64,000 bases of DNA, taken from contig NZ_JACSYA010000009.1 in the NCBI RefSeq assembly GCF_029870285.1, positions 62,001-126,000 of the forward strand, given 5' to 3'. This document shows positions 1-17,280 of the stretch, piece by piece. The position numbers and the translations under genes are program-made. Source of the DNA: Delftia sp. PS-11. Lineage in GTDB: Bacteria > Pseudomonadota > Gammaproteobacteria > Burkholderiales > Burkholderiaceae_C. Within the stretch, counting starts at the first letter, position 1. Each line of letters starts with the position of its first letter. Under the pieces are notes generated by a model. That model did not search any database. It saw only the letters and a program-made list of their open reading frames with translations, and was not told the DNA's origin.

Positions 1-657
1 TTCGTCCCCTATCTGCTCGGACAGCGCCAGTACAGCGGCTGGGTGGCCCGGCTGGACCGCAGCGCCCCGTTCACCAGCCCCGACGCCTGGCGCTGCCTCG
101 ATGTCAGCGCCATCCATCCCGGCGCCCAGGGCTTCGTGGGTGCCGCCCGCCACGACGGCATGGTCTATTTCGTGCCCTATGTCGATGCCAACGACCGCCA
201 CGGCCGCGTGCTGCGGCTGGACACCCGGGCCGACTTTGCCGACCCCGGGGCATGGCAGGTCTTCGATTGCGCCAGCGTCCACCCGGGCAGCCGGGGCTTC
301 TTCGGCGCCGTGTGCGCAGGCCGGCATCTGTACTTCATCCCGCATTGCCGGGGGGCAGGGCAGTACCACGGCCAGATCACCCGCTTCGACCTGGGCGGCG
401 CATTTGACGATCCGGCCAGCTGGTCCTACTGCGACCTCAGCCAGGCCCACCCGGACGCCCGCGGATTCATCGGCGCGGTGGCCGCCCGGGGATACCTTTA
501 CCTGGCCCCCTTCGAGACCGATGCGGGCCGCCACAGCGGGGTGGCACTACGCCTCGATCTGAACTCGGAATGCGTGCCCTGGCAGCCGGCAGCCAGCGCG
601 CAATCCCTGCCATCTCTTCAACAGGTTTTGGAGCCTACATGTCGAACGAATCCCTGA
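1..657 (+). CDS. Partial repeat protein, beta-propeller-like, 5' end outside the window
   Basis: The frame is open from base 1, so the gene begins upstream; the GTG at 43 is only an internal candidate. About 218 residues are visible. They contain a repeat of 55-56 residues seen in at least three copies plus a leading partial one. Each copy has the pattern HP-x-x-x-GF-x-GA, then LY-x-x-P, then a short G-x-(L/T)R-(L/F)D segment and F-x-DP-x-(A/S)W. No catalytic motif is evident. The periodicity suits beta-propeller blades, but that fold is inferred. The last 19 bases overlap the start of the NRPS gene, so the two are probably translationally coupled and the protein may belong to the biosynthetic locus. 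I do not recognise a named family. Confidence 0.6.
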   Translation, partial: FVPYLLGQRQYSGWVARLDRSAPFTSPDAWRCLDVSAIHPGAQGFVGAARHDGMVYFVPYVDANDRHGRVLRLDTRADFADPGAWQVFDCASVHPGSRGFFGAVCAGRHLYFIPHCRGAGQYHGQITRFDLGGAFDDPASWSYCDLSQAHPDARGFIGAVAARGYLYLAPFETDAGRHSGVALRLDLNSECVPWQPAASAQSLPSLQQVLEPTCRTNP

Positions 658-3600
658 ACCAGGCACCCGCTGCCAAAGCCGACCGGGCGGTGGTGGAAGG
701 CATGCTGCGCCAGATCATGTCCAAGGTCCTGCCCAGCACCCCCAGCCCCGAGGATGTGCACATTCCCTTCCTGGAAATGGGAGCCAACTCGCTTGTGCTC
801 ATGGAGGTACAGCGCAGCGTCGAAGCCCGTTTCGGCCTGACGATTTCCATCCCGCAGTTCTTTCAGGAGCTGACCTGCATGGACGCGCTGGCCGAGTACA
901 TCGTGCACAACCAAAGCGCCATGGCTCCTGCCCAAGAGCCGCCCGCCCAGCCACAGCCCACTGTGACCCCCGTCGCAACAGCGGTGCCCGAGCCCGTGCC
1001 CGCGCCAGCCGCCATGCCGCAGGTGCCGCTGGCGCCGCTGGCGCTGCCGGCATTCACCCAGGCCGCCCCCGTGGCCGGCGAGATCGAGCAGATCCTGCGC
1101 CGCCAGATGGAGACCGCCGCCGAGGCCATCAACCAGGTGGTCGCGCAGCAGCTGCGCTTTCTCGGCGGCCTCGGACAGACAGCCACGCAACCCGTGCCGG
1201 TGGCCGCCGCCGCGCCTGTGCCGGCCGCGCCTGAGCCGGCCGTATCTGCACCAGCCACCGTGGCAGCAGCCCCGGCAGGCGCGGCCCGACCGACCGCGGC
1301 CCGACCGTCCTCGGCCCTGGTCAGCCACCGCATGCTGTCGCCGCTGGAAATCCGCGCCCGGGGCCTGACCGAAAAGCAGAGCCAGCACCTGGAGGCGCTG
1401 ATTGCGCTCTACACCAGCCGCACCCAGCGTTCCAAGGAGCTGACCGCGCGCGATCGCGGCGTGCTGGCCGACAGCCGCGCCGCCGTGGGCTTTCGCTTCA
1501 CCACCAAGGAAATGCTCTACCCCATCGTGGGCAAGAAGGCGCAGGGCGCCTATCTCTGGGATGTGGACGGCAACCGCTACATCGACATCACCATGGGCCA
1601 GGGCGTGACCCTGTTCGGCCACCATCCCGACTTCATCGACCAGGCGCTGGCCGATCCCGACAACGACGCGCTGCTGCTCGGGCCCCGGCCGCCCCAGACC
1701 GGCGAGGCAGCCCGGCTGATCTGCGAGCTGACGGGCATGGAGCGCGTCACCTTCACCAACTCGGGCACAGAGGCCGTGATGGCGGCCCTGCGCCTGGCGC
1801 GCGCGGCCACGCAGCGGCAAAAGATCGTGATGTTCGACAATGCCTACCACGGGCATTCCGACAACGTCATGGGCCGCCCCGTCTGGACGGACGGCGTGCT
1901 GGGCAGCGTGCCCGTGGCGCCCGGCATCACCCAGGGCTCGGTGGACGATCTGCTGCTGCTCGAATATGGCAGCGACGAATCGCTCGACTACATCCGTGCC
2001 CATGCGGGCGAACTGGCGGCGGTGATCGTCGAGCCGGTGCAAAGCCGCCGGCCGGACCTGCAGCCCCAGGCGTTCCTGCGCGCGCTGCGCCAGATCACCG
2101 AAGAGGCCGGCGCCCTGCTGATCTTCGATGAAATGATCACCGGCTTTCGCGCACACCCGGGCGGCGCGCAGGCCCTGTTCGGCGTGCGCGCCGACATCGC
2201 CACCTACGGCAAGGTGCTTGCCGGCGGCCTGCCCATCGGCGTGGTGGCGGGCGCGGCGCGCTACATGGACGCCATCGATGGCGGCGCCTGGAACTACGGC
2301 GATGCCAGCTACCCGATGGTGGACCGGACCATTTTCGGCGGCACCTTCTGCCAGCATCCGGCCGCCATGATCACCACCGTGGCCACGCTGCGGCATCTGA
2401 AACAGCACAGCCCCGGCCTGCAGGACGATCTGACGCGGCGCACGCGCCGCCTGGCAGCCGAGCTCAATGATTTCTTCGACCTCGAAGAAGTGCCGATCCG
2501 GGTCGTGCATTTCGGCTCGCTGTTCCGCTTCGCCTTTTCCTCGAACCTGGAGCTGCTGTTCTACCACCTCATGGTGCGGGGCGTGTTCATCTGGGAATGG
2601 CGCAACTATTTCCTCTCCACCGCCCACAGCGACGCCGATGTGGACTTCATCGTGCAGGCGGTCAAGGACAGCGTGCTGGCGATGCGCGAAGGGGGCTTCC
2701 TGGCCGAAAAGAGTGTGGCGGCCACTGCCGTGGCGGCCAGTGCCGTGGCGGCCCAGTCCCGTGTCGAGATGACCACCGCGCAGCGCCAGCTGGCGCTGCT
2801 GGCCGAGATCAGCCCCCAGGGCTCCATGGCCTACCATGTGACAGCCCAGCTGGCGCTGGGCGGCGACCTCGAACGGGCGGCCCTGCGCAGCGCCCTGCGC
2901 GAACTGATGCGCCGCCACGAGGCGCTGCGCTGCGTGGTCGATGGCCACAGCCTGCGTGTGATGCCGTTGCAGGCCCTGCCGGACGCGGGCCTGCGCTTCA
3001 CCGACCTGGGCGATGCCGCGCAGCCGCAGGCCGCGCTCGATGAAGCGCTGGCCGTCCAGGCCCGCACGCCCTTCGATCTCGGCAGCGGGCCGCTCTTCGA
3101 AGCCCATCTGTTCCGCCTTGGCCCGCAGCAGCACCGGCTGCTGCTCAAGGCCCACCACATCATCATCGACGGCCTGTCGATGAACCTGGTGGTGCAAGAC
3201 CTCAGTGCGCTGTACACCGCAGCCTTCACCGGCCAGAGCGTGCCGCTGCCCGAACCCCTGCCCCTGGCCCGCTATGCCGAATGGCGCAACAGCACGCGCT
3301 TCGACAGGCAGCAGGCCTATTGGCTGGAGCAGCTGCAGGGTCCGCTGCCCGTGCTGGACCTGCCGGTGGACCGGCCGGCCGCGCCGGTGCGCAGCTACCT
3401 CGGCGGGCGCCACAGCCGCAGCCTCGACGCCGCACTGATCCAGCGCGTGCGCGAGCGCAGCCGCGAGCATGGCTGCACCGACTTCATGCTGCTGTTCTCC
3501 GCCTATGCGCTGTGGCTGCACCGTCTGTGCTCCCAGGACGATCTGGTGCTGGGCCTGCCCGTCGCAGGGCGCGGCCTGCCCCAGAGCGACCATCTGGTGG

Positions 3601-6029
3601 CCTACTGCACCCACCTGATCCCGGTGCGCAGCCGGCTGCAATGGGAGCAGTCCTTCGCGGACTACCTGCGCCAGATGCGCACCACCTTGCTCAACGGCTA
3701 TGAAAACCAGGACTATCCGTATGCGCAGCTGATCGAGCTGCCAGCCTTCAAGTCCCTGCATGGCCAGCTGGTGTCCACGCTGTTCAACCTGGACCGTCCC
3801 GGCAGCGCACCGGCCATGGCCGGGCTGGAGGTGGGCTGGCTCTCCCAGCCCATCCACCATACGGCGTTCTCGCTGATCCTGAACCTCACCGAGGTGGACG
3901 GCGCCATGGTGCTGGAGTGCGACTTCAGCCGCGATCTGTTCGAGCCAGACAGCATTGCCCGCTATGTCGATGCCTTCGTCACCCTGCTCGAAGCGATCGT
4001 GGCCACACCGCAGCAGCGTGTCTGCGAGCTGCCCCTGCTGGGGTCGCAGGCCGCGCGGCAACTGCTGCAGGAATGCAACGGCACGGCCACCGGCGCCGGC
4101 CCCATGGCCTGCGTGCCGCAATGGTTCGAAGCGCAGGCCGCCGCTGCCCCGCATGATCCGGCACTGCGCTTCGGACAGCAGACCCTGAGCTATGCCCAGC
4201 TCAACAGCGAGGCCAACCGGCTGGCCCACTGGCTGCGCGGCCAGGGCGTGGGCCCGGATGTGGTGGTCGGCCTGCACCTGCAGCGCTCGGTCGAGCTGGT
4301 GGTGGGCCTGCTGGCCATCCTCAAGGCCGGCGGCGCCTACCTGCCGCTGGACCCGGCCTATCCCGCACAGCGCCTGGCCTTCATGCAGCAGGACGCGGGC
4401 GTCACGCTGCTGCTCACCCAGCAGGCGCTGCAGCCGCAATGGGCCGGCGTGCCGGGCCTGCGCGTGCTCTGCCTGGACAGCGAAAGCGCGCTGTACGCCG
4501 ATGCGCCGCAGCACAACCCGCAGCCCTGCGCAGACCCGAACCATCTGGCCTACCTCATCTACACCTCGGGATCGACCGGCCAGCCCAAGGGCGCGCTGAT
4601 CGAGCACCAGGGCCTGGCCAACTACCTGCGCTGGGCGGTGCAGCACTACCAGATCGGCCAGGGCGAGGGCGCGCCCCTGCATTCCTCGATCAGCTTCGAC
4701 GCCACCATCACCTGCCTGCTGGCGCCGCTGATGGCGGGGCGCACGCTGTGGGTGCTGGGCGAAAGCGAGGACGAGCCCGAGATCGAGGTCATCCGCGCGG
4801 CCCTGGGCTCGGGGCGCGACTGGAGCCTCATCAAGGTCACCCCGGCCCACCTTGAAATGCTCAACGCCATGATCGCGCCGCAGGATCTGGCCGGCACGGC
4901 CCGCGTCGTGGTGCTGGGCGGCGAAGCCCTGCTGGAGCGGCATGTCGCGCCCTGGCTGGCGCATGCCCCCGCCACCCGCCTGATCAATGAATACGGCCCC
5001 ACCGAAACCGTGGTGGGCTGCTGCATCCACGAAGTCACTGCGCAGGACCTGGGCCATGGCGATGCCGTGCCCATCGGACGGCCCATTGCCAACACCCAGC
5101 TTTACGTGCTCGATGCCCGGCGCCAGCCGGTGCCCCTGGGCGTCAAGGGCGAGCTGTACATCGGCGGCGCCGGCGTGGCGCGCGGCTACCACCGGCGCCC
5201 CGAACTCACGGCAGAACGCTTCATCGACCTCGGCCAGACCGGGCTGGCGTCCCATGCCCTGGCCGAAGGCGCAGGACGGCGCCTGTACAAGACCGGCGAC
5301 CTGGTGCGCCATCTGCCCGATGGCCGTCTGGTCTACCACGGGCGCATGGACAACCAGATCAAGCTGCGTGGCTACCGCGTCGAGCTGGGCGAAATCGAAA
5401 GCGCCATTGCGCGGCTCGACGGCGTGCGCGATGTGGTGGTGGTGGCCCAGCGCAGGACCGCGCTGGACCTGCGCCTGGTCGCCTACGTGGTGGCAGCGGC
5501 CGGCTGCAGCCTGCAGCCGGCTGCGCTGCGTAGCGCGCTGGCCGAAACCCTGCCAGCCCATATGCTGCCGGGCAGCTTCGTGATGCTGGAGGCGCTGCCG
5601 GTCAATGCCAACGGCAAGGTGGACCGCGCGGAGCTGCCTTCACCCGACAGCCATGTGCCGGCCAGCCAGGCGCCCCGGCTGGATGCCGGCGGCGAGGCCG
5701 AGCGCCGCGTTGCCGCCATCTGGCGGGAACTGCTGGGGCTGGAGCAGGTGGGGCTGGAGGACAACTTCTTCGAGCTTGGCGGCCACTCCCTGCTGGTGCT
5801 GCCCCTGCGCGACCGCCTGCAGCAGGCCTTCGGCCGCCCCGTGGCGCCGCTGGATGTGTTCAGGCTGCCCACCGTTGCGGCGCAGGCCCGCTTCCTGGCC
5901 GAGCCGCAAGCCGTGGCCGAGCCCGGCGCGGGCACTGGCTCCGGCCCCGATCAGGATGTGCTTGAACTGGCCCACCGCCGCCGCGAGGCCATCCGTCAGC
6001 AGCGAGACAAGAGGCAATACCGTGCGTGA
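639..6029 (+). CDS. Hybrid NRPS: ACP-aminotransferase-C-A-T
   Basis: Multidomain synthetase of 1796 residues. The ATG at 639 is chosen because a GGAG lies at 630-633 and the ACP begins soon after. Domains in order: ACP (about 15-90, phosphopantetheine Ser51 in GANSL), an Ala/Pro-rich linker (95-240), a class III PLP aminotransferase of the glutamate-semialdehyde type (270-690; DEMITGFR, Lys525 in YGKVLAGG), condensation (708-1150; HHxxxDG with His839/His840), adenylation (about 1157-1680; IYTSGSTG at 1307) and T (Ser1717 in GGHSL). By analogy with mycosubtilin/iturin synthetases, the aminotransferase should turn a beta-keto acyl-ACP into a beta-amino acyl chain, which the C domain joins to the amino acid. 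I read the adenylation code by eye as DATKVGEVGK, close to Asn codes such as DLTKLGEVGK. The gene overlaps the PKS gene by 8 bases. Confidence 0.93.
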   Translation: MSNESLNQAPAAKADRAVVEGMLRQIMSKVLPSTPSPEDVHIPFLEMGANSLVLMEVQRSVEARFGLTISIPQFFQELTCMDALAEYIVHNQSAMAPAQEPPAQPQPTVTPVATAVPEPVPAPAAMPQVPLAPLALPAFTQAAPVAGEIEQILRRQMETAAEAINQVVAQQLRFLGGLGQTATQPVPVAAAAPVPAAPEPAVSAPATVAAAPAGAARPTAARPSSALVSHRMLSPLEIRARGLTEKQSQHLEALIALYTSRTQRSKELTARDRGVLADSRAAVGFRFTTKEMLYPIVGKKAQGAYLWDVDGNRYIDITMGQGVTLFGHHPDFIDQALADPDNDALLLGPRPPQTGEAARLICELTGMERVTFTNSGTEAVMAALRLARAATQRQKIVMFDNAYHGHSDNVMGRPVWTDGVLGSVPVAPGITQGSVDDLLLLEYGSDESLDYIRAHAGELAAVIVEPVQSRRPDLQPQAFLRALRQITEEAGALLIFDEMITGFRAHPGGAQALFGVRADIATYGKVLAGGLPIGVVAGAARYMDAIDGGAWNYGDASYPMVDRTIFGGTFCQHPAAMITTVATLRHLKQHSPGLQDDLTRRTRRLAAELNDFFDLEEVPIRVVHFGSLFRFAFSSNLELLFYHLMVRGVFIWEWRNYFLSTAHSDADVDFIVQAVKDSVLAMREGGFLAEKSVAATAVAASAVAAQSRVEMTTAQRQLALLAEISPQGSMAYHVTAQLALGGDLERAALRSALRELMRRHEALRCVVDGHSLRVMPLQALPDAGLRFTDLGDAAQPQAALDEALAVQARTPFDLGSGPLFEAHLFRLGPQQHRLLLKAHHIIIDGLSMNLVVQDLSALYTAAFTGQSVPLPEPLPLARYAEWRNSTRFDRQQAYWLEQLQGPLPVLDLPVDRPAAPVRSYLGGRHSRSLDAALIQRVRERSREHGCTDFMLLFSAYALWLHRLCSQDDLVLGLPVAGRGLPQSDHLVAYCTHLIPVRSRLQWEQSFADYLRQMRTTLLNGYENQDYPYAQLIELPAFKSLHGQLVSTLFNLDRPGSAPAMAGLEVGWLSQPIHHTAFSLILNLTEVDGAMVLECDFSRDLFEPDSIARYVDAFVTLLEAIVATPQQRVCELPLLGSQAARQLLQECNGTATGAGPMACVPQWFEAQAAAAPHDPALRFGQQTLSYAQLNSEANRLAHWLRGQGVGPDVVVGLHLQRSVELVVGLLAILKAGGAYLPLDPAYPAQRLAFMQQDAGVTLLLTQQALQPQWAGVPGLRVLCLDSESALYADAPQHNPQPCADPNHLAYLIYTSGSTGQPKGALIEHQGLANYLRWAVQHYQIGQGEGAPLHSSISFDATITCLLAPLMAGRTLWVLGESEDEPEIEVIRAALGSGRDWSLIKVTPAHLEMLNAMIAPQDLAGTARVVVLGGEALLERHVAPWLAHAPATRLINEYGPTETVVGCCIHEVTAQDLGHGDAVPIGRPIANTQLYVLDARRQPVPLGVKGELYIGGAGVARGYHRRPELTAERFIDLGQTGLASHALAEGAGRRLYKTGDLVRHLPDGRLVYHGRMDNQIKLRGYRVELGEIESAIARLDGVRDVVVVAQRRTALDLRLVAYVVAAAGCSLQPAALRSALAETLPAHMLPGSFVMLEALPVNANGKVDRAELPSPDSHVPASQAPRLDAGGEAERRVAAIWRELLGLEQVGLEDNFFELGGHSLLVLPLRDRLQQAFGRPVAPLDVFRLPTVAAQARFLAEPQAVAEPGAGTGSGPDQDVLELAHRRREAIRQQRDKRQYRA

Positions 6030-9000
6030 ACCGATACCAGCAGGCTCTGAATCCCCTCTGGCAGATCCCTATCAGGAAGACGATGGCGGTGCCATCGCCA
6101 TCGTGGGCATGGCCCTGCGTGTGCCGGGTGCGGCCACGCTGGGCCAGTTCTGGACCCACCTGCGCGATGGCCGGGAATCGACCCGTTTTTTCACCGATGC
6201 CGAGCTGCGCGAGGCCGGTGTGCCCGAGGCCGATCTGTCCAACCCCTCGTATGTGAAAGCCTACGGCGTGCTGGAGGGCGCCGACCGCTTCGATGCCGCC
6301 TTCTTCGACATGTCGCCCCGCGAGGCCGAGGTGCTGGACCCCCAGCACCGCCAGCTGCTCGAATGCAGCTGGGAGGCGCTGGAGCACGCGGGCTACGGCC
6401 CGGGCTCGCCCAACTTCAAGGCCGCAGGCCTCATCGGCACCTTTGCCGGCGTCGGGCTCAACAGCTACCTGCTGCAGAACCTGGTGGGCCGCAACGACCT
6501 GATCGAGGCCCTGGGCGGCTGGCAGATCACGCTGGGCAACGACAAGGACTTCGCGGCCACCCGCGTGGCCTACAAGCTCGACCTGCGCGGTGCGGCCATG
6601 AACGTCAGCACGGCCTGCTCGACCTCGCTGGTGGCCACTGCCATGGGCTGCCAGAGCCTGCAGGCTTACCAAAGCGACATGGTCATTGCCGGCGGCTGCT
6701 CGGTCCATGCCCCGCTGGCCCAGGGCTACTGGTACCACCCCGGCGGCACGCTCTCGCCAGACGGGCGCTGCCGTGCCTTCGATGCCCAGGCGCAAGGCAC
6801 TTTTGATGGCAGCGGCGTTGCCATCGTCGTGCTCAAGCGGCTCGCCGATGCGCGCCGCGACGGCGACACCATCCATGCGGTGATCCGCGGCTTTGCCGTC
6901 AACAACGACGGGGCGCAGAAGGTGGGCTACACCGCGCCCAGCGTCGATGGCCAGGCGGGCGTGATCCGCGAGGCCCAGGCCATGGGCAATGTCGAGGCGC
7001 ACAGCATCGGCTACATCGAGACCCATGGCACAGGCACCGACCTGGGCGATCTGATCGAGCTGAGCGCGCTGAGCGCCGCCTTCCGGCGTGCCGGCGTGAC
7101 CGAGCGCGGCCGCTGCGCGATCGGCTCGGTGAAGACCAATCTGGGGCATCTGGACACCGCTGCCGGCACCACCAGCCTGATCAAGACCGTGCTGTCGCTG
7201 CAGCATGCGCAAATCCCGCCCTCCCTGCACTTCACCGCGCCCAACCCGCGGCTGGGCCTGGAGGACAGCCCCTTCTATGTCAACGCCGCCTTGCGCGAAT
7301 GGCCGCGCTGGGATGCCCAGCCGCTGCGCGCGGGCGTCAGCTCCTTCGGCATCGGCGGCACCAATGCCCATGTGGTGGTGGAAGAGGCCCCGCCGGCCAT
7401 GCCCGGCGATCCGGGGCGCCCCTGGCTGCTGCTGCCGGTCTCGGCGCGCAGCGCATCCGCACTGCAGGCCAATACAGAGCGCCTTGCCGGACACCTGGAC
7501 GGGCTGGCGGCAGCGCACCCTGCAGCAGCGCCTGCGCAGCCCTGGCTTGCGGACGTCGCCCATACCCTGCAGACCGGCCGGCGCAGCTTCAGCCACCGCA
7601 GCATCTGGCTGCTCGATGCCCAGTCCCGCAGCCTGGCAGGCACGGCAGGCCACTGGACCGGGCAGGCGCCCGAGCAGGCACCGGCCGTGGTCCTGCTGTT
7701 CTCCGGCCAGGACGCGCAGCATCCCGGCATGGCCATGGGCCTGTACCGCGACGAGCCCCTGTTCCGGCAGGAACTGGACCGCTGCGCCGCCATCGTGCGC
7801 CGCAGCCATGGCCTGGATCTGCTGGCCCGCCTGAGCGCGCAGCCATCGGCCGGCGGCCCCGACCCTGTCTCCGATCCGCTGCCGCTGTTCGCCGTGCAGT
7901 ACGCCCTGGCGCGCAGCCTGCAGGCCCTGGGCCTGCCGGTGCGTGCCATGCTGGGCTACAGCCTGGGCGAATATGTCTGCGCCTGCCTGGCTGGCGTGCT
8001 GAGCCTGGAGGATGCGCTGGGCCTGGCCGTGGACGGCGCGGCCCTGCTGTCGCTGCTGGCGCCCGGCCGCCTGCTGGCGGTATCGATGGCGCAGGAGCAG
8101 CTGCAGCCGCTGCTCGGGCCGGAGCTGGAGGTGGCCATGGTCACGGCACCGCAGCAATGCGTGGTCGGCGGCCCCGAGGCGGCAGTGCGCCGCCTGGAGG
8201 ACGAGCTGCTGCGCCGTGGCGTGGTCTGCATGGCCAGCCCCATCGGCCTGCCGTTCCACACCCGCCACATGGCCCCCTTTATCGAGGCCTACCGGCTCAG
8301 GCTGGCGCGGGTCCGCTTCAACCCGCCCGCCATCCCGTATGTGAGCTGCCTCACCGGTGACTGGATCCGCCCCGGGCAGGCGACCGACCCCGAGCATTAC
8401 CTGCGCCTGGCCGGACAGACCGTGCAACTGGCCCGGGGTCTGGAGACCCTGTTCGCCCAGGAGGGCGCGGTCTATCTGGATGTGGCGCCCGGCCAGTCCC
8501 TCAGCCGCCTGGCCCTGCTGCAGCCGCAGCGGCCCGATGCCCGGCACATCGTGCCCTGCCTGCCCGATGTCTGGAACAGCGGCGCCGCAGCGGATGCGCA
8601 GGCTTTCTGCAGTGCGCTGGCGCGCCTGTGGTGCCAGGGCATCGACATCGACTGGCCGGCGCTGTACCCGCACGAGCGCCGTGCCCGGGTGCCGCTGCCC
8701 ACCTATGCCTTCGACCACCAGCGCTACTGGGTGGATCCTGCCAGCCGCCAGCCGCAGCCGGTGGCGGCCCAGGCCGATGACGAAGGCCAGCGGCCCGATC
8801 CGGCGCAATGGTTTTACCGCAGCAGCTGGCGCGATCTGGCGCCGCTGCGTCCTGCGGTCGTGCAGGGCCGCTGGCTGCTGCTCGGCAGCGCCCACGGCAG
8901 CCCTGCGCTGAGCGATGCCCTGGCACAGGCCCTGCAATCCGGCGGGGCGCAGGTGACGTGCCAGCCTGCGCCGCCCTTCGAATGCCCGCAGGACTGGGAT

Positions 9001-10548
9001 GCCCTGCTGGCACCGGGCGAACCAGGCCAGGCACGCTTTGACCATATCGTCCACCTGGGCCTGCTGCAGCCGCGCGGCAGCGATGCGCAGGAGCTGCAGC
9101 GCGGCTTCTACAGCCTGCTGGCCCTGGGCCAGGCGCTGGGCCGCAGCGTGTTTTCCGAATCGGTTGCGGTTACCGTCGTGGCCGAAGGCGTGCTGCCGGT
9201 GGGCGATGGCATCCCGCATCCGGCCCGAGCCGCTGTGCTTGGCCCCCTGCGGGTGCTGCCCCAGGAGTACCCGAATCTGCGCTGCCGCCTGATCGACGTC
9301 CTGCCACCCGGGCCAGGATGGCAGACGCAGCAGCTGTGCGCGCAGCTGCTGGCCGAATGGGGCAGCCCGCCGCACGAGCCGCTTGAGCCGGTGCTGGCCC
9401 TGCGCGCGGGAGCGCGCTGGGCCGAGCGTTTCGAGCCCTGTGCCCTGTCTCCGGACCTGCTGCCAGAGTCCCGGCTCAGGGCCGATGGCAGCTACCTGAT
9501 CACCGGTGGCCTGGGCCAGATCGGCCTGTGCCTGGCGCAGCGCATGGCCGAGCGCGCCCCCGGCCTGACCCTGGTGCTGAGCAGCCGCAGCGGCGAATCC
9601 GCACTGGCCGGCGCACGGCTGGCCCAGGTGCAGGCCATCCGGGCCCTGGGGGCCCGGGTCTGGGTGGTGCAGGCCGATGTGCGCGACGCCGCCGCCATGG
9701 CGGCCCTGGTGGACCGCATCGATGCCAGCGGCGTGCCGCTGCGCGGCGTGGTGCACGCGGCCGGCGTGGTCGGACAGGCCTCCTTCGCCACGGTGGGGGC
9801 CAGCGATGCCGCCTTCTGCGCCAGCCAGCTCTCGCCCAAGCTGGACGGCGCCCGGGTCCTGCAACAGGTCCTGGGCGAGCGCCGGCTCGACTTCTGCCTG
9901 CTTTGCTCTTCGCTCTCGCCCGTGCTCGGCGGCCTTGGCTTTGCCGCCTACGCGGCGGCCAATGCCTGTCTGGATACCCTGGCCGCCGAACACAACCGCA
10001 GCCATCCCGTGCGCTGGACCAGCGTGAACTGGGAGGGCTGGCGTTTCGAGGCTGAGATCGCTGCCCATGCGCCGGGCGGCGCCGTGGCCGAACTCGGCCT
10101 GAGCACAGCCCAGGGCATCGAGGCATTCGACCGCCTGCTGGCCGCGCCCCCTGGCGAGCGCTGGGTCATCTCCACGGGCGACCTGCAGCAGCGCATCCGC
10201 CGCTGGGTGCAGATGGATGCGCCGCCACCCCTGGCCCCGGCTGCGGGCCTGAGGCCGCGTCCGGCCATGCTGGGGGGCTATGTGGCGCCGCAGGGCGAGA
10301 CGGCGCTGGAAGTGGCGCGGCTGTGGGAGAGCCTGCTCGGCATTGCAGGCATCAGCGCCGAGGACAGCTTTTTCGAGCTCGGGGGCAACTCGCTGCTGCT
10401 GACCCAGCTGCTGGCCCAGATCCGCAAGCGCTTTCGCCTTGAGCTGTCGCTGACCGCCTTGTTCGAGCGCCCCACCATCGCCGATATTGCCGCGCTGATC
10501 GAGCTTGCCCTGCAGCCGCAGGGCGAGCGCGAGGAGGGCTACCTCTGA
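6022..10548 (+). CDS. Type I PKS module: KS-AT-KR-ACP
   Basis: 1508 residues from a GTG at 6022 that overlaps the NRPS stop (GTGCGTGA). The longer open frame upstream of this GTG is shadow sequence. KS (about 22-460) has Cys199 in TACSTS, His335 in THGTGT and His376 in NLGH. AT (553-843) has Ser647 in GYSLGE and a GLPFHTRHM stretch that looks more malonyl- than methylmalonyl-like. KR (core about 1153-1340) keeps the GGLGQIG cofactor loop and YAAAN, but the LDD triad of B-type reductases is absent, so stereochemistry is unclear. The ACP carries Ser1457 in GGNSLL. It should add one malonyl unit to the NRPS-bound intermediate and reduce it to a beta-hydroxy acyl-ACP. There is no DH, ER or terminal thioesterase, so chain release must depend on another protein or module. 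Confidence 0.93.
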   Translation: MREPIPAGSESPLADPYQEDDGGAIAIVGMALRVPGAATLGQFWTHLRDGRESTRFFTDAELREAGVPEADLSNPSYVKAYGVLEGADRFDAAFFDMSPREAEVLDPQHRQLLECSWEALEHAGYGPGSPNFKAAGLIGTFAGVGLNSYLLQNLVGRNDLIEALGGWQITLGNDKDFAATRVAYKLDLRGAAMNVSTACSTSLVATAMGCQSLQAYQSDMVIAGGCSVHAPLAQGYWYHPGGTLSPDGRCRAFDAQAQGTFDGSGVAIVVLKRLADARRDGDTIHAVIRGFAVNNDGAQKVGYTAPSVDGQAGVIREAQAMGNVEAHSIGYIETHGTGTDLGDLIELSALSAAFRRAGVTERGRCAIGSVKTNLGHLDTAAGTTSLIKTVLSLQHAQIPPSLHFTAPNPRLGLEDSPFYVNAALREWPRWDAQPLRAGVSSFGIGGTNAHVVVEEAPPAMPGDPGRPWLLLPVSARSASALQANTERLAGHLDGLAAAHPAAAPAQPWLADVAHTLQTGRRSFSHRSIWLLDAQSRSLAGTAGHWTGQAPEQAPAVVLLFSGQDAQHPGMAMGLYRDEPLFRQELDRCAAIVRRSHGLDLLARLSAQPSAGGPDPVSDPLPLFAVQYALARSLQALGLPVRAMLGYSLGEYVCACLAGVLSLEDALGLAVDGAALLSLLAPGRLLAVSMAQEQLQPLLGPELEVAMVTAPQQCVVGGPEAAVRRLEDELLRRGVVCMASPIGLPFHTRHMAPFIEAYRLRLARVRFNPPAIPYVSCLTGDWIRPGQATDPEHYLRLAGQTVQLARGLETLFAQEGAVYLDVAPGQSLSRLALLQPQRPDARHIVPCLPDVWNSGAAADAQAFCSALARLWCQGIDIDWPALYPHERRARVPLPTYAFDHQRYWVDPASRQPQPVAAQADDEGQRPDPAQWFYRSSWRDLAPLRPAVVQGRWLLLGSAHGSPALSDALAQALQSGGAQVTCQPAPPFECPQDWDALLAPGEPGQARFDHIVHLGLLQPRGSDAQELQRGFYSLLALGQALGRSVFSESVAVTVVAEGVLPVGDGIPHPARAAVLGPLRVLPQEYPNLRCRLIDVLPPGPGWQTQQLCAQLLAEWGSPPHEPLEPVLALRAGARWAERFEPCALSPDLLPESRLRADGSYLITGGLGQIGLCLAQRMAERAPGLTLVLSSRSGESALAGARLAQVQAIRALGARVWVVQADVRDAAAMAALVDRIDASGVPLRGVVHAAGVVGQASFATVGASDAAFCASQLSPKLDGARVLQQVLGERRLDFCLLCSSLSPVLGGLGFAAYAAANACLDTLAAEHNRSHPVRWTSVNWEGWRFEAEIAAHAPGGAVAELGLSTAQGIEAFDRLLAAPPGERWVISTGDLQQRIRRWVQMDAPPPLAPAAGLRPRPAMLGGYVAPQGETALEVARLWESLLGIAGISAEDSFFELGGNSLLLTQLLAQIRKRFRLELSLTALFERPTIADIAALIELALQPQGEREEGYL

Positions 10549-10629: not shown

Positions 10630-12417
10630 TCAGTGCGCATCGAGCACGCCGGCCGCTGCCAGGTGGCGGTAGATCATGTCTACGGCCTCTTCAGGCGTGC
10701 AGCAGCTGGTGTCCACGCGCAGCTCGGGCGACTCGGGGGCCTCGTAGGGCGAGTCGATACCCGTGAAATTCTTCAGGTCCCCGCGCCTGGCCTTCTTGTA
10801 CAGACCCTTGGGGTCGCGGCTTTCGGCCACGGCCAGCGGCGTATCGACAAACACCTCGATGAATTCGCCCTGGGCCATCAGCTCGCGCGCCATGCGCCGC
10901 TCCGAGCGGAACGGCGAAATAAAGGCCGTCAACACGATCAGGCCCGCATCGACAAACAGCTTGGCGACCTCGGCCACCCGGCGGATGTTCTCCACCCGGT
11001 CTGCGGCCGTGAATCCCAGGTCCTTGGTCAGGCCATGGCGCACGTTGTCGCCATCGAGCAGATAGGTGCGCTTGCCCTGGGCGTGCAGCCGCTGTTCCAG
11101 CAGATTGGCCAGGGTGGACTTGCCCGCCCCTGACAACCCGGTCAGCCAGACGACGGCGCTGCCATGCTGGTTCATGCGCCGCCGCGATGCCTTGGTGACC
11201 GCGGCAGCCTGCCAATGGATATCGTCGGACCGGCGCAGCGAATGCCGGATCATGCCGGTGCCGACCGTCTCGTGGCTGAGGGGGTCAAGCAGCAGGAATG
11301 CGCCTGTCTCGCGGTGGTGCGCAAAAGGGTCGAAGGCGATGGCGCGCTCCAGCGCCAGATCGACCACGCCGATCTCGTAGCGGACCAGCGATGCCGAGGC
11401 AAGCCGCTGCCCGGTGCTGGCATCCAGCTTGTACTTGAGCGGCATCACGCAGGCTGTCACCGTGCTGCTGCCGGTTTTCATGAGGTAGTCGCGTCCGCTC
11501 AGCATGGCCTGCTCGCCGAGCCAGACCACCGTGACCTCGAACTGGCGTGCCGCAGGGGCAGGGGCATCGGCTGCCGCAATCACATCCCCCGGTGCGATTT
11601 CGGGCGCGCCTGCCAGTGCCAGCACCACCGATTGCGGGGCCACTGCCTGCGCCACATCGCCGTCGACGGTGGTGATGCGCAGCACCTGGCTCTGCACCCC
11701 CGTGGGCGACACGCGGACATGGTCACCCTGCCTGATGCTGCCGCTGGCCAGCGTGCCCGCGTAGCCTGGCGCACTCTGGGCCGGACGCTCGACGGTTTGC
11801 AGCGGCATGCGCAAGGGACCGGCCCGCAGCCGGTCGGGACCGAATGCGGCCTCTTCGAGATGCTGCCCCAGGCTGGGCCCGCCATACCAGTCCATGCGCA
11901 GGCTGGGCCGCAGGAGGTTGTCGCCCTGCAGGGCCGAAACCGGGATGGCCACCACCTCGCCCAGGCCGATCTGTGCCGCAAAACTGCGAAACCCGTCGGT
12001 GATTTCCTCGAATGCGGCCTGCGAATAGCCCACCAGATCCATCTTGTTGACGGCCAGCACCAGCGGGCCGATGCCAGTCTGGGCCAGCAGCAGGCTGTGG
12101 CGCCGCACCTGCGCGCGCAGCCCCTGCAGCGCATCGACCACCACAATGGCCAGATCCGCTGCCGAGGCCGCAGCGACCAGTGGCTGCGTATGCTGCTCAT
12201 GGCCGGGCAGATCCGCCACGAGAAAACGGCGCTGGCCGGCCGAAAAATCACGGGCATTGCCCGAACCGCCGCCACATGCGGCAGCCAGTCCGCCGATCAG
12301 GCTGGTTTTGCCGTCCCCGGCGCTGCCGCAGAGGACGGCATGCAGCGGTCTGCCGTGCCCCATCTGCGCAAGACAGGGCGCGCCGTGCGCCCTGAGGATT
12401 TCGTTCACCTGTCCCAT
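10630..12417 (-). CDS. cysNC: CysN-CysC fusion (sulfate adenylyltransferase GTPase-like / APS kinase)
   Basis: 595 residues from the ATG at 12417, preceded by a good GGAAGGGA ribosome-binding site. An alternative TTG at 12519 would overlap the upstream stop. The C-terminal half is a complete APS kinase: P-loop [18 protein letters not shown], an [10 protein letters not shown] segment and a [14 protein letters not shown] segment. It should make PAPS in the cytoplasm. The N-terminal half is CysN-like, with P-loop GSAGDGKT (residues 31-38), DLPGHEQ and NKMD. Only about 30 residues separate the P-loop from DLPG, against roughly 70 in standard CysN, and the switch I block typified by EREQGITID is missing. 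No CysD is in the window. Its position as last gene of the export operon suggests PAPS supply for the pathway; GTP-driven ATP sulfurylase activity is doubtful. Confidence 0.85.
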
Positions 12418-12515: not shown

Positions 12516-13871
12516 TCAATCGGCGTCGACATAGGCCAGACTTTTTTGACCGGGCACCTTGCTCAATCGCCGCATGTGGTAGTTGAGCGCATTGCTGCGC
12601 CCGTTCCTGAGCACATAGGAGCCCAGCACCCCGTAGACCACGGGCAGGTCATAGCGCAGCGCATGCGACACCGCCGCCGGGTCCACGGTATCGGCCCTGG
12701 CCACCGCCTCGATGTACAGGCGCACGCTGTCATAGCCCATGGCGGCCGTCTCGTCGGGCGGCACATCGGGGAAGCGCTGCGAGAAGCGTTCGGCAAAGCG
12801 CCTGACCACGAAGTTGTCCTGCCGGTAGAGCGTGGTGACCAGGGTGTTTTCGCCACTGGCCCCGACGCGATCGATGAAATCCTGGAACTGCAGATTGCCC
12901 ATGCCCACGAAAGGCTGCAGCACACCGATGCCCCGGCTGTTGCGGATCACCTCGGCGCCGTCCCGCGCCGAGGTCAGCAGCACGATGGCGTCCACGTCGC
13001 TCGTGCCCAGCTCGGTGAAGTGGCTGCGGAACTTGCGCGACTTGAACTGGCTCAGATCGCCGCCGGAGCGAAAGGCAAGCGAGCCGGATATCTTCAGGCC
13101 CAGCTTGGCAAACTCCGAGGTCAGCAAATGCACCAGGCTCTCGTTGCCATGGGTGTTCTCGTAGGCAAAGTAGACCTTGCTCCAGCCTCTGTCGGCAAAT
13201 GCCTGGGCAAAGCGCTGGGCCAGAACCTCATCGCTCGGGCGCAGCTGGAAATACAGCCCGAAGGCATCCGACAGATCGCTGGAACTCATCCACTCCAGCC
13301 GGGAGTCGGTGGCATTGCCGGACAGCAGCAGCACGCCATGCTTCTGGTAGGTCAGCATGGAGGGCATGGTGGCCTCCGTATTCATATGGCCCACCACGGC
13401 GGAGATGTGAGGGTTGCTCAGCACCTTCTTTGCAATCTGCACGCCCGCTTCACCCAGCGCATTGCGGTAGCGGCCCTCGTCGCGCGTACGGTGCACCGCG
13501 GTGCTGTCTATGAACGGGCGCTCATCGGTCAGGTCCAGCACCAGGCGCCGGCCCGGCGGCGGCACGGGCTGGCCATTGGCCAGGGCTTCGGCGCGGGCGC
13601 GCTCGTCCTGGGCCGCCACCTCGGCGTTGTATTCCTGCGCGGCCAGCTGCGCGCCGTTGATGAAGCCCGGCCACCGCGTATCCCAGACCACGCCCAGGTG
13701 GTAATCCTTGCCTGCAGCATAGTCGGCCATGACCCGGGCCCGCCGCTCATGGCGCGACTGCTGCAGCGACTCTTCGGAATCCTGGTTGCAGGCGCTGAGC
13801 GCCGTGACCAGCAGCAGGCTGACCAGCAGGCGGCGGCGGGTGCTCCCCAGCAGGGCGAGAGGATTGCTCAT
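12516..13871 (-). CDS. Periplasmic-binding lipoprotein, type 1 fold (branched-chain amino acid receptor-like)
   Basis: 451 residues. A lipoprotein signal ends in LVTALSAC, with the lipidated Cys at about residue 28, so the protein is likely anchored in an envelope membrane. The rest resembles the LivJ/ABC substrate-binding group: an early DLTDERP region, a central GHMNTEATM segment and the [21 protein letters not shown] hinge-like stretch spread over residues 150-210. Its start overlaps the stop of the SPFH gene (ATGA). No matching importer permease or ATPase is nearby. It is embedded in an export operon, so it may sense or capture a ligand rather than feed uptake. The ligand cannot be read from sequence. 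Confidence 0.75.
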
Positions 13872-14701
13872 TTGTCACCCAAAATGATGGGCGTTCCACC
13901 CTTGGTGTTGCCCAGTACCACCGTCTTGGTATTGGGTGACTTGGCCAGCTCCAGCATCGCCTGGATGCTCTGCGCCTGCAGGGTCTTGTCCGTCATGGTC
14001 GAGGCGATGATCTTCTGGTAGTCGCGGATACCCGTCGCCTCCTTGACCTTGCGTTCCGCCTCGAAGCCTTCCGCCTCCAGCCTGTACTTGTAGGCCAGGG
14101 CCTGCTGCTGATGGACCAGTTTGTCCTCGATCGACTTGGTCACCGATTCCGGCAGCTCCACCGATCGGATGATGATTTCATCGACCAGAATGTACTTGCG
14201 GCCCACTTCCTCCAGCGCCAGGGTGATGATCTTGCTCAGCACCCCATCCTTGTTCGTGTAGATGTCCTCGGGCGTGCGCTGGCCGAGATTGCGCCGCAGC
14301 ACCGATTCGATCTGCGGCAGGATGATCTTGTTGACATAGTTGGGTCCGACCTGCTGGTGCAGAACGCCCAGCAGCTCATAAATCGGCTGGAACCGGACTG
14401 CAATCTTGAGCTTGACCGGCAGGCCGCTGCTGGTCAGCACATCGAAGTCGTGCAGTACCAGCTGTACCCGGGTGTCATAGATGGTCATGGAGTTGAGCGG
14501 CATCAGCACATGCAGGCCTTCGGCATAGATGTGATCGGTCACGCTGCCGGTACTGAGCATGCGGTAGAGAACCCCTGCCTCGCCGGGCCTGATCACCACC
14601 AGAATGCGGGACCACAGTGCAATGACGACCAGCAGTGCCAGCAGCATCGCCACCACGAGGTAGGGCGCCCGGTCCTTGAGCTTCGACCACAGAGATCTCA
14701 T
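13868..14701 (-). CDS. SPFH/Band 7 (prohibitin-like) membrane protein
   Basis: 277 residues. One N-terminal transmembrane segment (about 14-36, rich in Leu, Val and Ala) is followed by an SPFH domain (about 37-220) with the prohibitin-like run VIRPGEAGVLYRML, a KLKIAVRF strand, and a charged helical region rich in Ala/Glu/Lys/Arg before a glycine-rich tail. Such proteins oligomerise and organise membrane microdomains or control proteases. It lies 63 bases after the family 3 binding-protein gene and overlaps the lipoprotein gene. An SPFH protein among exporter genes is unusual; it might scaffold the transporter, but this is inference. Confidence 0.85.
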   Translation of the reverse strand: MRSLWSKLKDRAPYLVVAMLLALLVVIALWSRILVVIRPGEAGVLYRMLSTGSVTDHIYAEGLHVLMPLNSMTIYDTRVQLVLHDFDVLTSSGLPVKLKIAVRFQPIYELLGVLHQQVGPNYVNKIILPQIESVLRRNLGQRTPEDIYTNKDGVLSKIITLALEEVGRKYILVDEIIIRSVELPESVTKSIEDKLVHQQQALAYKYRLEAEGFEAERKVKEATGIRDYQKIIASTMTDKTLQAQSIQAMLELAKSPNTKTVVLGNTKGGTPIILGDK

Positions 14702-14764: not shown

Positions 14765-15628
14765 CTAGCGATTCCTGACGGTGACCCCATCGGGCTTGGG
14801 GGGGACCGCATCAAAACTCTTGTAGATACTGGCGATCACCCCATCCCTCAGCATTTTTTCCAGCTCGGCATCGATGCGATCGAAGACACCGCGCAGCTCC
14901 GGCTTGAGCGAATACATCATGTAGGTACCCATGATTTCCTTATTCATCTCAAGACTGGCATAACGGTAGCGTGAGGCGTTGACGCCCACAGACTTCAGTG
15001 ACCGCTCTGTCGAAATCTTGTTGTTGACCACCAGCACATCCACTTCATGCACCGAAAAGCTGCGTGCCATAGAGTCGTTGTCCGTAAAGGGACGGCGATC
15101 CACGTTGGGCAGCTTTTCAAATTCCTTGAAGTAATAGACACCATCCCGGTAGCCCACCCGAAGGCCGGAAAAATCTGACAGACTCTTGATATCCCGCTGG
15201 TCACTGCTGTTTTGCAGGAAGTAGATTCTGCTGGGAATATTGCCGAGGTTGACGGAGAAACGTGCAAAGCGCTCACGCTCGGCCGTGCGGAAGCGGACAT
15301 TGGTGACAATGTCAACGGTGCCATCCTTGAGCCCGCTGAGGCTGCTGCCAAAAGGGGTTTCGCGCCATTCGAGGTCGCAGTCGATGCGGCGCGCCGCCTC
15401 CTCCAGAATGTACTGAAGAACGCCGGAATGGCGTCCCTTCGAGTACACCACCATCTCGGGTGGCGAATCCAGAAAGGCCACCACCAGCCGTGGCCTGGCA
15501 GCCGGTGCGGCATTGCCCGGCGGCGATGCGGGCAGGGTCTGGGCCCCGGCGGCTGCCGCGAGCAGCCCCGCCAGCGCAATCGCCAGCCGCCACCGGCGCC
15601 CGCGTGGTGCGAATGCGTTGAGGTTCAC
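14765..15628 (-). CDS. Extracellular solute-binding protein, family 3-like
   Basis: 287 residues from GTG at 15628, whose GTGA overlaps the exporter stop. A signal peptide (about 1-29) ends near GAQ. The mature part has the two-lobed family 3 pattern: an early FLDSPPEMV strand, FGSSLSGLKDGTVDIV around residues 92-108, a TAERERFARFS hinge, and a FSGLRVGYRDG second-lobe start. This resembles periplasmic receptors for amino acids or small peptides. No cognate permease is present. Coupling to the exporter gene suggests a part in sensing or handling the exported product. Confidence 0.8.
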   Translation of the reverse strand: MNLNAFAPRGRRWRLAIALAGLLAAAAGAQTLPASPPGNAAPAARPRLVVAFLDSPPEMVVYSKGRHSGVLQYILEEAARRIDCDLEWRETPFGSSLSGLKDGTVDIVTNVRFRTAERERFARFSVNLGNIPSRIYFLQNSSDQRDIKSLSDFSGLRVGYRDGVYYFKEFEKLPNVDRRPFTDNDSMARSFSVHEVDVLVVNNKISTERSLKSVGVNASRYRYASLEMNKEIMGTYMMYSLKPELRGVFDRIDAELEKMLRDGVIASIYKSFDAVPPKPDGVTVRNR

Positions 15629-17280
15629 ACCATCTCCTTCATCTGGCCCTCTTCCATCTTGATGACGCGGTCGGCGGCCGAGAAATACCGGTCATCGTGA
15701 GTGACTGCGATGATGGTCTTGCCCAGGCGGCGCAGATCCGGCAGCAGCTCTTCATAAAGATGCCTGCGGAACTCCGGATCCTGGTCGGCCGCCAGTTCAT
15801 CAAACACATAGATCTGGCGCTCATCGGCAATGGCATTGATGAGCGCGAGGCGCTTGCGCTGGCCTGTGGACAGGCTGATATTGGTGAACGCTCCATCACG
15901 GAATTTGGTCTTGTCGGACAGACCCATTTCCTTGATCAGAGTGCGTACCCGCTGCTCGTCGATATCCACGGCACCGTAAAATCTGTCGAACAGGTGGAAG
16001 TCGGTGAAGACGATGCCGAAAAATTCACGGTAATCCGGATACAGATCGCGGTCCAGGAATTCGCCGTTGACCTCGATCTTGCCTTCGGTGGGGTAGTAGA
16101 GGCCGGTCAGCAGCTTGAGCAGAGTGGATTTGCCACTGCCATTGCCGCCGACGATGAAGATGATTTCGCCGGCCCGCAGCTTGAAGTTGATAGGGCCCAC
16201 GCGGAATCTCTGCTTGTCATCCGGATTATGGTATTCAAAGCGGACATCGCTGAATTCAAGCTGCTCGAAAACCGGCAGCTGATTTTTGGATGTTTCAACC
16301 ACACGCACACCCCGGGTCGCATCATCCACCTGCCGCTCCAGGCTGCGCAGATTGGCGACGGCCGCATCGGCCTTGACGAACAGGGGCAGGGAGCCGAACA
16401 ACTGATCGAGCGGCCCGATGATGAACAGAATGCAGGCCGTCAGCTTGATGATGACGCCGGGATCGACCGCCGCGAAATACGGCCAGACGAACAGAACCAC
16501 CGCAATCAGGATGTAGAAGAACACCTCCGAGAACATGGTCACGAAGACCGAATTGATCCCGGTGCGGCTTTTGAGAATCTGCACATCGGAGGCGATGCGC
16601 ACCTGGTGCTGGTAAAGATCCTGGCTCTTGGCCCTGTTGATCTTCACCTCCTTGAAACCGTCCAGCGTATGCTCCAGCGCATCGAAGAAGCGGGCCTCGT
16701 GGCGATTGGCCTCGTTGATGTCACGGATGATGACGGCCCGCTTGAGCAGGAAGACCCAGGCACCCAGTCCGATCGCTGCCACCGTCAGCACAAAGCCTTC
16801 CGGCGTCAGCCAGGCGATGTACAGCATGGAAAAGGCCAGCATGATGGCCGCCTGGATGGATGAGAAAACCATCGCCGAGCTTTGGGATATCTGCAAGGTG
16901 TCCTGAAACAGGCAGTTGTAGATATGCGCGTGGCCGTGGCGCTCGATGAATTCCAGCTCGGTGTGCCGCAGCTTGTCGCTGATCCGTTTGCGCACCTTGA
17001 GCAGCACCTCTTCGACCATCACCACCGCACTGTCGAGCGTGTACTTCTTCGTGTAGGTGAACAGGGCCAGAACGACGCAGAACATCGCCAGGTAATAGAT
17101 CTGCACCGTCCCCGTGGACGAAAACTCGTTGACCAGGCCGGCCCCGTGGTTGATCACGGCAAGCAAAGCCCCGTTGGCCATGCCGGCAATCAGTGAGAAA
17201 ACCAGCAACCGCGACCGGGGGTGGTCAGATTCTTGGTCCAGGAATTCCAGCAGGCGTTTGGCCGGGAACGGGAGCTTCAT
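15625..17280 (-). CDS. Peptide-export ABC transporter (PvdE/SyrD-like, fused permease-ATPase)
   Basis: 551 residues. The N-terminal half has about six hydrophobic segments, the expected half-transporter permease. The C-terminal ATPase shows Walker A GGNGSGKST, signature LSTGQRKR, Walker B IYVFDELAADQDP and a switch His in VTHDD. Length, layout and the unusual signature match the cyclic-peptide/siderophore exporter group that accompanies non-ribosomal peptide clusters. It is the best candidate for moving the NRPS-PKS product across the inner membrane, with the TolC-like protein encoded about 760 bases upstream. Its stop overlaps the next gene by 4 bases. Confidence 0.92.
   Translation of the reverse strand: MKLPFPAKRLLEFLDQESDHPRSRLLVFSLIAGMANGALLAVINHGAGLVNEFSSTGTVQIYYLAMFCVVLALFTYTKKYTLDSAVVMVEEVLLKVRKRISDKLRHTELEFIERHGHAHIYNCLFQDTLQISQSSAMVFSSIQAAIMLAFSMLYIAWLTPEGFVLTVAAIGLGAWVFLLKRAVIIRDINEANRHEARFFDALEHTLDGFKEVKINRAKSQDLYQHQVRIASDVQILKSRTGINSVFVTMFSEVFFYILIAVVLFVWPYFAAVDPGVIIKLTACILFIIGPLDQLFGSLPLFVKADAAVANLRSLERQVDDATRGVRVVETSKNQLPVFEQLEFSDVRFEYHNPDDKQRFRVGPINFKLRAGEIIFIVGGNGSGKSTLLKLLTGLYYPTEGKIEVNGEFLDRDLYPDYREFFGIVFTDFHLFDRFYGAVDIDEQRVRTLIKEMGLSDKTKFRDGAFTNISLSTGQRKRLALINAIADERQIYVFDELAADQDPEFRRHLYEELLPDLRRLGKTIIAVTHDDRYFSAADRVIKMEEGQMKEMV

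Follow-up and report, generated by a model that had tools for sequence, protein, structure and literature searches.

Near the start of the 64,000-nucleotide stretch of Delftia sp. PS-11 DNA investigated in this study (the window, bases 62001-126000 of contig NZ_JACSYA010000009.1, here C80) lie two genes, g33 and g34, which a sequence-only reading had described as an assembly line for a beta-aminoacyl-asparagine-ketide and possibly a new lipopeptide class. Both are the middle part of one hybrid line of polyketide synthase (PKS) and nonribosomal peptide synthetase (NRPS) proteins of about 48 kb (g21 to g34, C80:24660-72548), whose product is likely a beta-amino lipopeptide that carries a sulfate and is probably macrocyclic. 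Its core is known from other systems and the pathway around this core is a new variant, whose unusual parts, a hydroxymalonyl-type cassette, an in-line sulfotransferase (ST) behind a Thr module and a beta-propeller partner, are mostly located outside the two genes. Window coordinates equal C80 coordinates minus 62000; the remainder of the region was taken from C80, with genes called by a simple codon-usage caller. The central features, with domains abbreviated as ACP (acyl carrier protein), AMT (aminotransferase), C (condensation), A (adenylation), PCP (peptidyl carrier protein), KS (ketosynthase), AT (acyltransferase) and KR (ketoreductase), are:

1..657, + strand: g32, 3' part (whole gene C80:61419-62657); repeat protein of 412 amino acids, predicted beta-propeller (gene call, AlphaFold, Foldseek)
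639..6029, + strand: g33, NRPS protein ACP-AMT-C-A(Asn)-PCP of 1796 amino acids (Pfam, gene call, database copy P0001, A code)
1521..2594, + strand: class III aminotransferase, GSA-aminomutase-like, expected to make the beta-amine (Pfam PF00202, E 4.6e-53)
2757..4067, + strand: condensation domain with HHIIIDG (Pfam PF00668, E 8e-82; motif)
4125..5618, + strand: adenylation domain, code DATKVGEVGK (Asn) (Pfam, code extraction, literature codes)
5706..5897, + strand: peptidyl carrier protein (Pfam PF00550)
6022..10548, + strand: g34, PKS protein KS-AT-KR-ACP, expected to extend Asn and to reduce to a beta-hydroxyl (Pfam, gene call, motifs)
7696..8493, + strand: acyltransferase of the type for ACP-bound extenders, motifs GYSLG, VCM and LPFH (Pfam; 157 bits with ZmaA vs 96 with CurL; motifs compared with the tables in PMC4207774)
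9487..10044, + strand: ketoreductase with intact catalytic motif (Pfam, motif)

The domain content assigned to both proteins is confirmed by Pfam, gene calls and motifs. All domains found in the frame 570-6029 (two PP-binding, Aminotran_3, Condensation, AMP-binding and AMP-binding_C) and in the frame 5605-10548 (ketoacyl-synt, Acyl_transf_1, KR and PP-binding) score above the curated Pfam cut-offs. The coding start of g33 is at 639, as in P0001, that of g34 close to 6022 as judged by the gene call, and each gene overlaps with the preceding one. g33 contains the AMT lysine (TYGK), the HHIIIDG motif of its C domain and the carrier serines, and g34 contains the KR motif SS...Y..AN and the AT motif GYSLG; its KS cysteine was read by eye as STACS, and a scripted KS pattern gave no match. 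The by-eye code of the A domain, DATKVGEVGK, which had been considered close to asparagine codes, was reproduced by extraction at residue positions following the GrsA numbering. It is listed as Asn, as a prediction, in Table 2 of PMC3547906, and DATKIGEVGK is given as Asn in Table 1 of PMC10391617, for a residue characterised as D-Asn/Asp. The order of domains thus agrees with the proposed scaffold of a beta-aminoacyl chain followed by Asn and a reducing ketide module.

Module order and predicted product

The loading and further modules were found upstream on C80 by domain scans:

C80:24660-33053: g21, TubC_N-C-A-PCP-ST-C-A-PCP-TE (TE, thioesterase), terminal NRPS
C80:34280-41674: g24, FAAL-ACP-KS-AT-DH-KR-ACP (DH, dehydratase)
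C80:41681-47245: g25, KS-AT-DH-KR-ACP
C80:47242-53886: g26, KS-AT-DH-MT-KR-ACP (MT, methyltransferase)
C80:53883-57977: g27, KS-AT
between g27 and g32: g28, 3-hydroxyacyl-CoA dehydrogenase; g29, ACP; g30, acyl-CoA dehydrogenase; g31, FkbH

The FAAL of g24 would load a fatty acid, which would undergo three extensions, one of them with C-methylation, and a fourth extension by the KS-AT protein g27, probably with hydroxymalonyl-ACP provided by g28-g31. Since g27 contains no KR, a beta-keto group would be left for the AMT of g33, which is expected to aminate this group before the chain is joined to Asn. Subsequently, g34 would add a ketide to Asn and reduce it, and the terminal g21 would add Thr, sulfate its hydroxyl on the carrier and add Gly. 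Although g21 is the first of these genes on the contig, it likely acts last because it ends in a TE. The beta-amine is the probable site at which this domain forms a lactam, as suggested by the combination of a TE, a free amine and the cyclic peptide exporter g39, which would export the ring. The predicted product is cyclo(3-amino-2-hydroxy-4-methyl fatty acyl, perhaps polyunsaturated - Asn extended by a hydroxylated C2 unit - O-sulfo-Thr - Gly). In this scheme, the order of domains, the A codes, the colinear homologues, the conserved partners and the frequent position of the ST behind modules for hydroxylated residues are read from the sequence, and the chemistry of each step, the choice of extender, ring closure, retention of the sulfate and export are predictions that build on them. 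The gene pair thereby becomes part of a defined pathway that is conserved and has relatives in a number of groups of proteobacteria, and whose product can be predicted and searched for by mass.

The proposed order is supported by a metagenome-assembled genome of the Thiotrichaceae (G001, locus L016), where homologues of g27, g28, g29, g30, g31, g32, g33, g34 and the terminal NRPS follow each other in one direction, interrupted by one gene between the homologues of g27 and g28 and by a partial second g32 between those of g33 and g34. This colinearity argues for the transfer of the chain from g34 to the terminal protein, whose ST is 63% identical to that of g21 and found in the same place. In a second genome, G331, a single contig contains homologues of g33, g34, g39 and g28-g31, whereas those of g26-g27 and g32 share another contig and the terminal NRPS is found on yet another one.

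Several observations weigh against the proposed pathway. The genes are scattered over several contigs in G331 and in a third genome, G117, and a search of 72.6 kb of the G001 contig revealed neither a FAAL nor any further module of the early PKS part. The DH motifs deviate from the consensus (HCVFDQMVVP, HRVFGKLVVS and HRIFDEVVLP), which renders double bonds in the product uncertain, and the motifs of the g27 AT are mixed (GYSVG, VCR and HAFH) with respect to the tables in PMC4207774. No relative of g35, the putative source of activated sulfate described below, was found at the related loci examined, and no product of this pathway was found.

Relation to microsclerodermin and iturin pathways

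Relatives of g33 were examined as the best 120 of 2377 proteins over the threshold and reach 78% identity, with the best among the matches listed in a separate scan of genome contigs being 50% identical. The code D[AG]TK[VI]GEVGK is shared by 72 of these 120 relatives and is found in 68 cases in proteins of the stand-alone type, whose named holders include Thalassomonas actiniarum, Algibacillus agarilyticus, Magnetococcus, Thioflexithrix and Ectothiorhodospiraceae BW-2. In a tree of AMT domains calculated by a quick method from 119 of the 120 rows (one row contained no AMT domain of sufficient length), a branch with an SH-aLRT of 91 separates 67 of the 68 stand-alone rows with an Asn code, including g33, from P0116, the exception being P0073, and six rows with other codes are found on the same side. 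The opposite side contains the microsclerodermin-type proteins P0116, P0108 and P0110, the iturin-type P0095 and P0101, which carries the same Asn code; P0116 forms a long branch.

The suggestion of a new class does not hold as stated, since the beta-aminoacyl-Asn core is already part of microsclerodermin biosynthesis as described in section 5.2 of PMC6163206, where a PKS chain proceeds through an AMT to Asn and further NRPS and PKS steps. Hydroxymalonate extenders are proposed there, as is the formation of the beta-keto group by a monooxygenase domain. As in the pathways of microsclerodermin and pedein (msc; Jahnella, Sorangium), an AMT fused to an NRPS would aminate a PKS chain and join it to Asn, with release by a TE. 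MscG reportedly extends Asn directly, which fits the gene order and the gene names of that pathway. In the data searched, with MIBiG not among them, no result refuted the earlier reading: g33 has an Asn-like A domain, and among the relatives listed, the closest one from a characterised pathway, P0116 (msc strain Jahnella sp. MSr9139), shares 43% identity with g33 across 60% of the protein and differs in the order of its domains.

The shared core logic and the code of P0116 (DATKIGEVGK), a near twin of that of g33, raise the question whether the line is, strictly speaking, a cluster of the microsclerodermin type, in which Asn and the ketide would cyclise to a pyrrolidone to yield an analogue of microsclerodermin. 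Such a reading also agrees with the hydroxymalonate extenders proposed for that pathway (PMC6163206) and with a Variovorax cluster of 21% similarity that antiSMASH labels as microsclerodermin in PMC10946135. Nevertheless, we regard it as quite improbable. The luciferase-like monooxygenase that resides beside the AMT in msc is absent from g33, and the intact KR of g34 would remove the keto group on which closure of the pyrrolidone would draw. The terminal modules encode Thr-ST-Gly, the AMTs of g33 and P0116 belong to different clades and no amidohydrolase resembling MscE was found among the proteins scanned with Pfam. The msc pathway further differs in its phenylacetate starter, its Trp halogenase and its other later modules, and its gene list, as far as given in the source, contains neither an ST nor an FkbH cassette, both of which are present here.

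A similar distinction applies to the iturins. In iturin, mycosubtilin and puwainaphycin biosynthesis, a beta-amino fatty acid is generated by a PKS-AMT acting on a fatty-acyl-ligated chain. The likeness to the iturins is that a beta-amino fatty acid is followed by Asn, as indicated in the present line by domains and code. Iturins contain seven amino acids; they are not known to have a ketide behind Asn, and their clusters are not known to include a hydroxymalonyl cassette or an ST. In the present line, by contrast, Asn is followed by the PKS module of g34 and there are three amino acid modules in total. Based on these modules and on the separate placement of P0095 in the tree of AMT domains, membership in the iturin family, to which the core had been compared, was rejected.

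The in-line sulfotransferase

The sole solved relatives of the g21 ST at E <= 0.001 are the ST of CurM (4gbm, 2.1e-52), which is nearest, and 4gox (2.8e-46), which is labelled only 'Polyketide synthase' and which we take to be an olefin-synthase ST. The STs of CurM and of olefin synthases act at the end of the chain and lead to elimination. The g21 ST is thus related to that of CurM by sequence, but differs from its ST-TE termination by the C-A-PCP that is placed between ST and TE.

A search with the ST region, using a query that starts after the A domain, identified 5895 proteins, of which the best 120 were examined. In these proteins, the A domain directly preceding the ST was readable 123 times, and 108 of these codes are Thr, Ser, DA[SA]TxAA[VI]CK or 4-hydroxyphenylglycine (Hpg)-like (62 of Thr, 22 of Ser, 22 of Tyr-type and 2 of Hpg-type, with 15 others), compared to 27/120 for other A domains of the same proteins, with a Fisher value of 2.6e-26 that is not to be taken literally since the rows are related. 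Nineteen further ST copies without a readable preceding A domain, some of them second tandem copies and some from shortened proteins, were excluded. With Thr and Ser alone the unthinned numbers are 84/123 and 18/120, and after thinning at 70% identity codes for hydroxyl residues remain at 47/59 against 16/78; in a looser extraction, 131 codes were read directly ahead of an ST, and 111 belong to the Thr, Ser, Tyr and Hpg types counted above. Among 40 proteins with an N-terminus similar to g21, the adjacent code is Thr in 38 and Ser in 2 cases. DFWN[IV]GMVHK is a Thr code according to papers that include PMC3547906.

In g21 itself the first code is that of Thr. The second was read by hand as DILQLGLVWK, which was used because automated extraction was out of register (DILQMCLVWK). 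This code, presumably for Gly, is also found 10 times among the A domains of the 120 proteins that are not adjacent to an ST, and no paper on related codes was found in the open-licence literature of PubMed Central (PMC).

Since the ST mostly follows codes for hydroxyl residues, its most likely target is the hydroxyl in the side chain of the residue before it, which in the present case would be Thr. This rule is tempered by several points. Upon removal of the g21-like family and thinning, it weakens to 23/35 against 16/60, and 15 of the 123 adjacent codes are of other kinds, including a DAED-type in six proteins. DIPRVGHVGK precedes the ST twice in P0264, which also contains a TubC_N domain, and the labels of the Ser, Tyr, Hpg and Gly codes are presumed. 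Six NRPSs, P0273, P0275, P0276, P0278, P0280 and P0281, contain two tandem ST copies behind a DAED-type code, which does not look like one for a hydroxyl residue, and deviate from the rule.

The kinship with CurM suggests a different outcome, in which sulfation of Thr would be followed by loss of the sulfate to leave a dehydrated residue (dehydrobutyrine). The substrate of the CurM ST is a carrier-bound beta-hydroxyacyl group, whose sulfation results in elimination, and carrier-bound Thr has the same 3-hydroxyacyl geometry. The olefin-synthase pathway likewise ends in elimination (PMC11837247). We nevertheless hold this outcome to be rather unlikely, since the g21 ST precedes a C domain instead of a TE, and related ST domains are also found behind codes that we take to be of the Tyr- and Hpg-type, whose residues are incapable of elimination. 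Moreover, an ST domain is part of the NRPS cluster for cyanopeptolin (oci), where the sulfate stays in the product (Table 1 of PMC2533009); this domain modifies a glyceric-acid side chain whereas the g21 ST is predicted to act on an amino acid inside the chain. Alternatively, the beta-hydroxyl generated by the KR of g34 could be the target, as this intermediate is passed to the protein that carries the ST. We assign little probability to such a substrate, in light of the location of the ST behind the Thr carrier and of the prevalence of modules for hydroxylated amino acids before the ST in the 120 proteins.

Sulfation of Thr with retention of the sulfate forms part of a broader proposal, to which we give about even credence: that the CurM-type ST is a general in-line NRPS domain that sulfates the residue just loaded (Thr, Ser, Tyr or Hpg), with the sulfate being retained, and that the window represents a family, widespread in proteobacteria, of hitherto undescribed alpha-hydroxy-beta-amino lipopeptides that are macrocyclic and sulfated (Asn-ketide, sulfo-Thr, Gly) and need a dedicated beta-propeller protein. 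The suggested reading rule, that an in-line NRPS ST marks the directly preceding residue as sulfated, could guide searches because sulfated peptides are easily missed; sulfate can be lost in the mass spectrometer. No rule that links in-line ST domains to Ser, Thr or Tyr modules was found in the open-licence PMC literature, outside of which most subscription journals fall. A stand-alone ST is described for the sulfazecin pathway in PMC11298585. A second NRPS stretch of G001 (L102, G001:C138:1-12000) displays the order C-A-ST-TE, an NRPS counterpart of the CurM-like end, which might release a decarboxylated, alkene-bearing residue.

Extender cassette, beta-propeller partner and neighbouring genes

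The FkbH protein, the 3-hydroxyacyl dehydrogenase, the acyl-CoA dehydrogenase and the discrete ACP are all present together in g28-g31, and their homologues are also grouped in G001 and G331. The set resembles the genes for hydroxymalonyl- or methoxymalonyl-ACP, and since the cassette contains no O-methyltransferase we infer hydroxymalonyl as extender. The AT of g27 scores 191 bits with that of ZmaA, which is specific for hydroxymalonyl-ACP, compared to 139 with CurL, and that of g34 shows the same preference, opposite to the AT of g24 (160 and 260 bits). The AT 5yda outscores ZmaA for both g27 (193 bits) and g34 (180 bits), and the second AT motif varies in the homologues of G001 and G331. 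Judged by the GYSxG and hydrophobic MxW-type motifs that go with ACP-linked extenders, the AT of g34 fits (GYSLG, VCM) and looks to be of the ACP type, and that of g27 fits in part (GYSVG, VCR). The AT of g27, that of g34 or both may take hydroxymalonyl. This arrangement is reminiscent of zwittermicin, whose set of dehydrogenase, ACP, acyl-CoA dehydrogenase and FkbH is alike, and differs from it in the type of product and in the mixed motif of the g27 AT. In g27, the intact AT (GYSVG) is preceded by an AT-like stretch without catalytic serine (GAAVG), and a motif of this protein, INQVVAQQL, is present again behind the g33 ACP, possibly for docking.

g32 is predicted to be a beta-propeller and a conserved partner of the line. 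Its kelch-type Pfam match is below the cut-off; an AlphaFold model calculated without alignment (mean pLDDT of 75.9) is almost entirely beta, and its top Foldseek matches are proteins recognised as beta-propellers, with no function named by them. Among the 369 genomes of the class that were scanned, g32 was matched in three, the window's own, G117 and G331, which are exactly those with an ST match of at least 64% identity, whereas any ST match is found in 63. Both G117 and G331 carry g33; the g32 match in G331 is in two pieces, the longer of which was reported with a stop codon. In the same search g32 was absent from G046, G026, G142 and G195, which have the next best ST matches (40-51%, best per genome); the ST is part of other module orders in G046, G142 and G195, and in G026 no NRPS domain was found beside it. 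Both ST and g32 are missing from the genomes sampled from the same genus, from the family and from the order (one for each rank), which points to a patchy distribution. Among 29 contigs of at least 40 kb from rows with the Asn code (own copy excluded), 17 equal in size the contig of a relative of g32 or of the terminal NRPS and 7 match both, which, being drawn from the best 120 per listing, is a weak proxy for linkage only. A viral or plasmid source was set aside, with 1 relative among 15 pattern matches in a scan of viral contigs and with less than 60% identity in all 959 plasmid records matched at E <= 1e-50.

The flanking genes comprise:

upstream of g21: g17, alanine-racemase-like (below the family cut-off, first 296 residues scanned)
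upstream of g21, in contig order: g18, substrate-binding protein; g19, MFS protein; g20, acetyltransferase (domain scans)
between g21 and g24: g23, phosphopantetheinyl transferase (domain scan)
10630..12417, - strand: g35, CysN-like GTPase fused to adenylylsulfate kinase (Pfam APS_kinase, E 6.5e-71)
12516..13871, - strand: g36, periplasmic binding protein (Pfam Peripla_BP_6)
13868..14701, - strand: g37, SPFH/Band 7 protein (Pfam)
14765..15628, - strand: g38, family 3 solute-binding protein (Pfam)
15625..17280, - strand: g39, cyclic peptide export ABC transporter (NCBIfam TIGR01194, 361 bits vs a cut-off of 286)

As judged from its domains, g35 likely supplies 3'-phosphoadenosine 5'-phosphosulfate for the ST. 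A relative of g39 with 39% identity adjoins the homologues of g33 and g34 in G331. Relatives of g39 (27% and 39%) and of g37 (32% and 39%) are likewise located close to different assembly lines with an AMT, namely those of L046 and L070, which suggests that the exporter and SPFH genes constitute a transport cassette that travels with AMT clusters. In the genome of the window, C domains are also located on three further contigs (C2, C47 and C59), with 14 matches overall including those on C80.

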